In this document: one piece after another, positions 1,533 to 13,608 of the stretch
Layout of the letters: each line of letters opens with the position of its first letter
Numbering within the stretch: the stretch's first letter is position 1
NCBI RefSeq assembly: GCF_000003815.2
Contig: NC_049981.1
Coordinates: forward strand, 25,862,463-25,926,462
Origin: Branchiostoma floridae
Taxonomy: Eukaryota > Chordata > Leptocardii > Amphioxiformes > Branchiostomatidae
DNA: 64,000 bases
Direction of reading: 5' to 3'
Notes under the pieces: generated by a model
The model's input: the letters and a program-made list of their open reading frames with translations, nothing else
What the model was told of the DNA's origin: nothing
Database searches by the model: none
Position numbers and translations under genes: made by a program

Positions 1533-1782
1533 ATGACGGGCGGGATCAGTAACGTCACCAACAGCACGGACATTCGGGACATGAAGTCACGCGTGTTTGT
1601 GGGAAACTTGAACACGGTGAAGGTGTCCAAGGCGGAGGTGGAGAACGTCTTCTCCCGTTACGGGAGGATCAGGGGCTTCTCCATCCACAAGGGGTACGCC
1701 TTCGTGCAGTACACGGACGAGGCGGAGGCTCGGGCGGCGGTCACGGGGGAGGACGGCCGAGAAATCGCCGGGCAAGTTCTCG
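1533..1782 (+). CDS. Exon 1: start codon and RRM of the hnRNP C/RALY-like gene
   Basis: The ATG at 1533 opens a frame reading [13 protein letters not shown], close to the start of hnRNP C proteins, and includes nearly the whole RRM. RNP2 is VFVGNL and RNP1 is KGYAFVQY, and the end [12 protein letters not shown] matches the family closely. The open frame runs on to 1796, but the family match breaks after GQVL and a donor (ctcg|gtaact) sits exactly there, leaving phase 1. A stop follows 14 bases into the intron. The exon is markedly more GC-rich than its surroundings. A 5' UTR splice acceptor near 1499 or 1508 is possible. Confidence 0.9.

Positions 1783-13608: not shown

Follow-up and report, generated by a model that had tools for sequence, protein, structure and literature searches.

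In the analysed DNA of Branchiostoma floridae (the window, 64,000 nucleotides, C3:25862463-25926462), a gene was found which, judged from its sequence, very probably is one genuine gene of a small family. In this family, an RRM of the hnRNP C/RALY type is followed by a basic segment rich in proline; two fingers come next, the first C2HC and the second BCL11-type C2H2, with an acidic tail behind them. The proteins would associate by means of zinc. The gene represents a new domain arrangement inside the hnRNP C/RALY family and not a new kind of system. In the literature, searched by titles and the beginnings of abstracts, no description of an hnRNP C-type RRM combined with BCL11-like fingers was found; an annotated database entry may still exist. 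Matrin-3 and RBM20 also carry an RRM and C2H2 fingers in one chain, and would differ from the lancelet gene in the RRM family and in the type of the fingers.

The gene (1533 to 13608, +) is modelled with seven exons and comprises 326 codons and a stop codon, with GT/AG at all junctions (Table 1). The encoded protein contains the RRM, the EPKPDRP linker, the proline run and the two zinc-binding motifs CGRC...HHK-LVG-C and WVCRFC...QHA-SAV-H. The open frame of seven exons and 326 codons given in the preliminary description is borne out by the splice sites and by the phases, which are repeated in two related loci, termed P2 and P4 here. Codon-usage scores are poor at separating the reading frames of this gene. 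The called frame of exon 3 reaches 0.37 per codon, compared to 0.30 for the 99th percentile of open intronic segments, and one antisense frame reaches 0.36; by its sequence, exon 3 is possibly a cassette exon of the window copy only. If exon 7 is left out, exon 6 reads on for 11 more codons before a stop. An Rfam search of window positions 1-20000 gave 0 matches.

Table 1. Exons of the gene, an element in its fourth intron and related loci in the genome. Positions of exons and element are those of the window.
Feature	Position	Strand	Description
Exon 1	1533..1782	+	Start codon and the larger part of the RRM (hnRNP C/RALY type); phase 1 at its end; 250 bp, same length in P2
Exon 2	10821..10896	+	Rest of the RRM with the EPKPDRP linker; phases 1 to 2; P2 and P4 have similar exons
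Exon 3	11379..11462	+	84 nt, phases 2/2, skippable; counterpart looked for in P2 and P4, none found
Exon 4	11829..11980	+	Proline run, basic region; from phase 2 to phase 1; 152 bp, same length in P2; exon of P4 with PPP..KRPR read in the same frame
Exon 5	12741..12869	+	C2HC finger (CX2CX12HX4C), then a conserved CxC; symmetric phase 1-1, as in its three paralogous exons
Exon 6	13189..13418	+	C2H2 finger of BCL11 type, followed by the acidic tail; phase 1 at its start; counterpart in P4
Exon 7	13549..13608	+	Final codons and stop; GT/AG; lower confidence; counterpart looked for in P2 and P4, none found
Fold-back (MITE-like) element	12235..12523	none	About 290 bp in intron 4, non-coding; AATAAA at about 12292
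P2	Fingers C3:29634416 and 29635332; RRM C3:29607588 (131 bits)	same strand	Found by genome searches with the finger pair and with the RRM half
P3	Fingers C3:25828073 and 25827583 (pair C3:25828192-25827583)	minus	About 35 kb upstream of the window, opposite strand
P4	Fingers C6:8855940 and 8856768; RRM C6:8844871 with 8844345 (72 and 21 bits)	same strand	On another chromosome

Exon 4 (11829-11981, +) is open in a second frame as well, which encodes an acidic peptide and has a codon score no worse than that of the called frame. This alternative frame was rejected, as the exons of P2 and P4 match the called frame only (P2 with E 5e-4) and the second frame is not conserved in the paralogues found. 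The reading frame of exon 4 is settled by the match of the P2 exon. From the window alone, the case for a chimera would have stayed open, because Pfam gave no BCL11 match for the first finger and because of this second frame in exon 4.

The genome (513 Mb, 431 contigs) was searched with both halves of the protein. With the finger pair 11 matches were obtained, namely the two exons of the window, three more pairs, the true BCL11 gene (E 0.02) and two weak matches. The RRM half as query yielded 15 matches, seven of them at three places (the window with four matches, P2 and P4), while the other eight lie elsewhere and reach at most 32 bits. Since the search scores only the best candidates, these are the three loci found, and the number of hnRNP C-type RRM loci is at least three. 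In all three, a finger pair follows 11-27 kb downstream of the RRM and on its strand. For unlinked RRM and finger sequences such a placement has a chance of roughly 1e-4 per locus, a value to be read with the copies not being independent events. Another split RRM, with an DPRSINARVFIGNL-like start as in RALY, was observed at C6:4.2566 and 4.2589 Mb with low scores (26 and 23 bits; L044 and L045).

P2 and P4 repeat the order of the window gene, with RRM, linker exon, exon for the proline run and basic motif (PPP-KRPR), first finger exon and second finger exon. The spliced models of the three genes, all with GT/AG introns, agree in phase 1 after the RRM, phase 2 after the linker and phase 1 before and after the first finger exon; P4 has one additional intron within the RRM. 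The proteins of P2 and P3 terminate inside the second finger exon. Chance is excluded for the architecture of the window gene because the paralogues repeat it, and not by statistics on the window alone. The lone chimera implied by the preliminary description has thus become one of three such genes found, accompanied by the finger-only copy P3. The finger pair of P3 has the same phases as its relatives, and a profile search detected no RRM in the 60 kb examined at this locus or in the window. P3 may have arisen from the family as a gene with fingers only, and its finger pair without a detectable RRM indicates that the pair can exist apart from the RRM.

The N-terminal half clearly belongs to hnRNP C/RALY, as had been proposed from the RRM, the EPKPDRP linker and the proline run. 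Residues 6-106 match hnRNP C in the PDB (2mxy, E 5e-36), with an alignment that crosses the junction of exons 1 and 2 into the EPKP linker. Residues 6-96 match RALY (1wf1, E 3e-34), a further match within the family is 1wf2 (E 3e-32), and the best PDB match outside hnRNP C/RALY has E 7e-8. As in the proteins of HNRNPC, RALY and RALYL, the RRM has the SNVTN..D start, the RNP motifs and the EPKP linker. Over 87 residues it is 69% identical to hnRNP C and 62% to RALY. Because of this identity to hnRNP C and its membership in the RRM family, the protein would be a nuclear hnRNP with a single RRM that binds U-rich pre-mRNA. The order of proline run and basic segment, together with the acidic tail, is a further likeness of the lancelet proteins to hnRNP C/RALY. 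The basic (NLS) segment after the proline run is present, with a clear KRPR motif in P2 and P4 and a degenerate one in the window gene. The C-terminal tails of 62, 60 and 31 residues contain 14, 15 and 11 acidic residues (D+E) versus 2, 3 and 2 basic ones (K+R); the tail of P4 is incomplete. Vertebrate hnRNP C and RALY have counterparts of the proline run, the basic segment and the acidic tail, and in hnRNP C the tail lies behind the coiled coil (CLZ), a leucine-zipper-like helix for oligomerisation.

The preliminary description had also recognised a pair of fingers in the order known from BCL11. The order and the assignment of the second finger hold, whereas the first finger remains below the cut-off for the CCHC finger of BCL11 and has another spacing. 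Pfam recognises the second finger as C2H2, just below the gathering score in the whole protein and just above it in the isolated C-terminal half. With P4 as query, BCL11 was the sole match outside the family below E 0.5 (E 1.9e-4), and with BCL11 as query, P4 was the best match other than BCL11 itself (E 5e-4); the two are therefore reciprocal best non-family matches in the 513 Mb genome. The other members are more distant in the BCL11 search: the window gene (E 0.6) ranks after an unrelated locus (0.46), and P3 and P2 (about 2.5) stand amid weak matches elsewhere. A profile comparison with BCL11 by hhalign gave a probability of 97 over 40 columns.

With Cys and His kept fixed, the second finger scored better against BCL11 than 2000 of 2000 shuffled sequences in all eight comparisons (four members, two BCL11 sequences). 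Its scores were 58-90 against BCL11, 34-47 against a snail finger used as control and 13-23 against another finger of BCL11. The snail finger, which also has a central Trp, was above its own shuffles (p 0.0005-0.002) at about half the score of BCL11. BCL11 and all four members have a phase-1 intron ahead of the second finger. Its distance from the first Cys is seven residues in the window gene and nine in P2, P3, P4 and BCL11. Both BCL11 rows and every one of the four members have a Pro five residues ahead of this Cys. By these features the second finger is classified as BCL11-type. It shares W..L..HA..H..IY, the Pro at -5 and the phase-1 intron with BCL11A/BCL11B, which likewise have a C2HC finger on a 1-1 exon upstream. 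In contrast, BCL11A/BCL11B have later C2H2 fingers for DNA binding, and the window protein ends after the second finger. BCL11 of the lancelet is encoded by a gene of its own on C1, which has the CCHC finger, the first finger and the later fingers.

The first finger is possibly also of BCL11 type, according to its residues and its exon. BCL11 and all four members encode it on an exon of phases 1-1, and shuffle tests against BCL11, the only C2HC finger compared, gave p 0.0005 to 0.022. None of the four members reached the cut-off of 27 bits for the Pfam family CCHC_BCL-11A (PF25491); P4 alone was listed, with 9.0 bits and E 2.1, whereas the exon of the true BCL11 gene of this genome reached 57.7 and 56.2 bits. 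A PDB search with a profile of the four finger pairs gave 56 matches, with repeat-finger proteins on top and no BCL11 chain; the two BCL11A CCHC chains were unlisted at E up to 10. These chains (two entries) are found with the lancelet BCL11 exon as query. The spacing differs as well, being CX2CX12HX4C with an additional conserved CxC in the lancelet family and CX2CX14H in BCL11. Single-sequence AF2 models of exon 5 and exon 6 alone were of low confidence and uninformative (mean pLDDT 58 and 56).

Over the aligned codons of the RRM, dN/dS was 0.14-0.17 in four comparisons. For the fingers it was 0.12-0.31 in the five of 12 comparisons with finite dS, and dS was saturated in the other seven. 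Judged by these values, both halves are under purifying selection. The synonymous divergence is near saturation; therefore, the duplications are old. A decaying copy without function is a highly improbable explanation for the window gene, even though its basic motif is degenerate in comparison to P2 and P4 and its exon 3 lacks a counterpart among those found, since 326 codons are open, the zinc ligands of both fingers are retained and the low dN/dS of the RRM was obtained in comparisons that include this gene. More weight has to be given to two adjacent genes, the first hnRNP C-like and the second encoding zinc fingers, that were duplicated as a block and wrongly joined by the splice model. 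P3, where the 60 kb examined and the window gave fingers and no RRM, would agree with this. However, all three copies have a phase-1 GT donor after exon 4 and a phase-1 start of the first finger exon, read-through past the exon-4 donor gives unrelated residues in each copy, and the frame of exon 5 in the window has no ATG ahead of the first finger. A hidden first exon of a separate finger gene was looked for in intron 4, where the best peptide match (E 0.008) concerned one pair only and no clear coding segment was common to the three copies. The power of this comparison is limited, as exon 4, used as control, was recovered between P4 and P2 (E 4e-5) and between P4 and the window (E 0.006, with an antisense match at 0.002) and not between P2 and the window. 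Taken together, we consider two separate genes quite unlikely.

For a single gene, the origin of the fingers has to be considered. They might stem not from BCL11 but from a generic C2HC/C2H2 pair that converged on W..L..HA..H..IY, and the low score of the first finger with PF25491 as well as the snail finger, which with its central Trp also exceeds shuffled sequences, would fit such a convergence. In addition, the first finger was compared with BCL11 only, and the C2HC fingers of FOG and EHZF are grouped with that of BCL11 in an excerpt of PMC1526750. Against convergence stand the reciprocal best match of P4 and BCL11 in the whole genome, the distance between the BCL11 scores of the second finger and those of snail and of the other BCL11 finger, the equal phase and nearly equal position of the intron and the invariant Pro at -5, so that we regard it as improbable. 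A little more credit, though still in the range of the unlikely, is given to the finger-bearing form as the ancestral hnRNP C/RALY of animals, with the coiled coil having replaced the fingers in vertebrates; it would account for fingers in all three hnRNP C-type loci found and for the old duplications at nearly saturated dS. Starting from the small family of genuine genes proposed here, we tentatively put forward, with clear reservations, that the lancelet hnRNP C family has exchanged tetramerisation by a coiled coil for fingers from an ancestor of BCL11, through shuffling of phase-1 exons, and that it may use them for zinc-finger assembly or for recruitment of repressor partners. The finger pair would probably have come on phase-1 exons that it has in common with the BCL11 ancestor, prior to the duplication of the family.

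A search for the CLZ gave no match in the loci of the family and none that was convincing in the window, where the best one (E 0.55) lies outside the gene. The search of the genome, run without a positive control, gave no CLZ match either. The proline run and the first Cys lie only 43-53 residues apart. The lancelet proteins thus differ from hnRNP C/RALY in having the C2HC and C2H2 fingers between basic segment and acidic tail, with no CLZ found. In hnRNP C, a basic leucine-zipper-like motif follows the RRM and the CLZ helix forms the tetramer that is needed for tight RNA binding, as stated in an excerpt of PMC8994388. Since the finger pair is located about where vertebrate hnRNP C has its CLZ, it would, by analogy, most likely provide self-association and partner recruitment for tight binding by a single RRM. 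The CCHC finger of BCL11B leads to dimers and tetramers, according to an excerpt of PMC8708588. For the lancelet family this oligomerisation step is a guess, because the first finger is far below the BCL11 CCHC cut-off and has another spacing, and because the PDB search with the profile of the four pairs missed the BCL11A CCHC chains. The function as a repressor-type module, suggested in the preliminary description, is unproven. Inspected by eye, the start of the window protein does not appear to contain the N-terminal 12-aa repression peptide of BCL11; the later BCL11 fingers are absent too, and nothing beyond the second finger is in favour of repression. Such a 12-aa repression peptide is mentioned for BCL11 in an excerpt of PMC1526750.

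hnRNP C is described as a coiled-coil tetramer which measures and packages pre-mRNA. If the proposed exchange is true, the oligomerisation module would be exchangeable, and a chordate with zinc fingers in its only detected hnRNP C-type genes would be a natural test of the role of the coiled coil. It would also clearly exemplify domain shuffling between an RNA-binding gene and a transcription-factor gene, with introns in matching phases.

The later fingers of BCL11 gave significant matches in the window only at 38.2-39.3 kb on the other strand (21-47% identity), within a multi-finger gene. This separate C2H2 gene is located at 38190-40069 (-) and matches zf-H2C2_5 and zf-C2H2_16 of Pfam. Judged from the translation, open frames at 52161-52730 and 61648-63833 (+) resemble LINE-type reverse transcriptase. 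A tandem array at 33834-34418 consists of 3.6 copies of a 163-bp unit with 92% matches.
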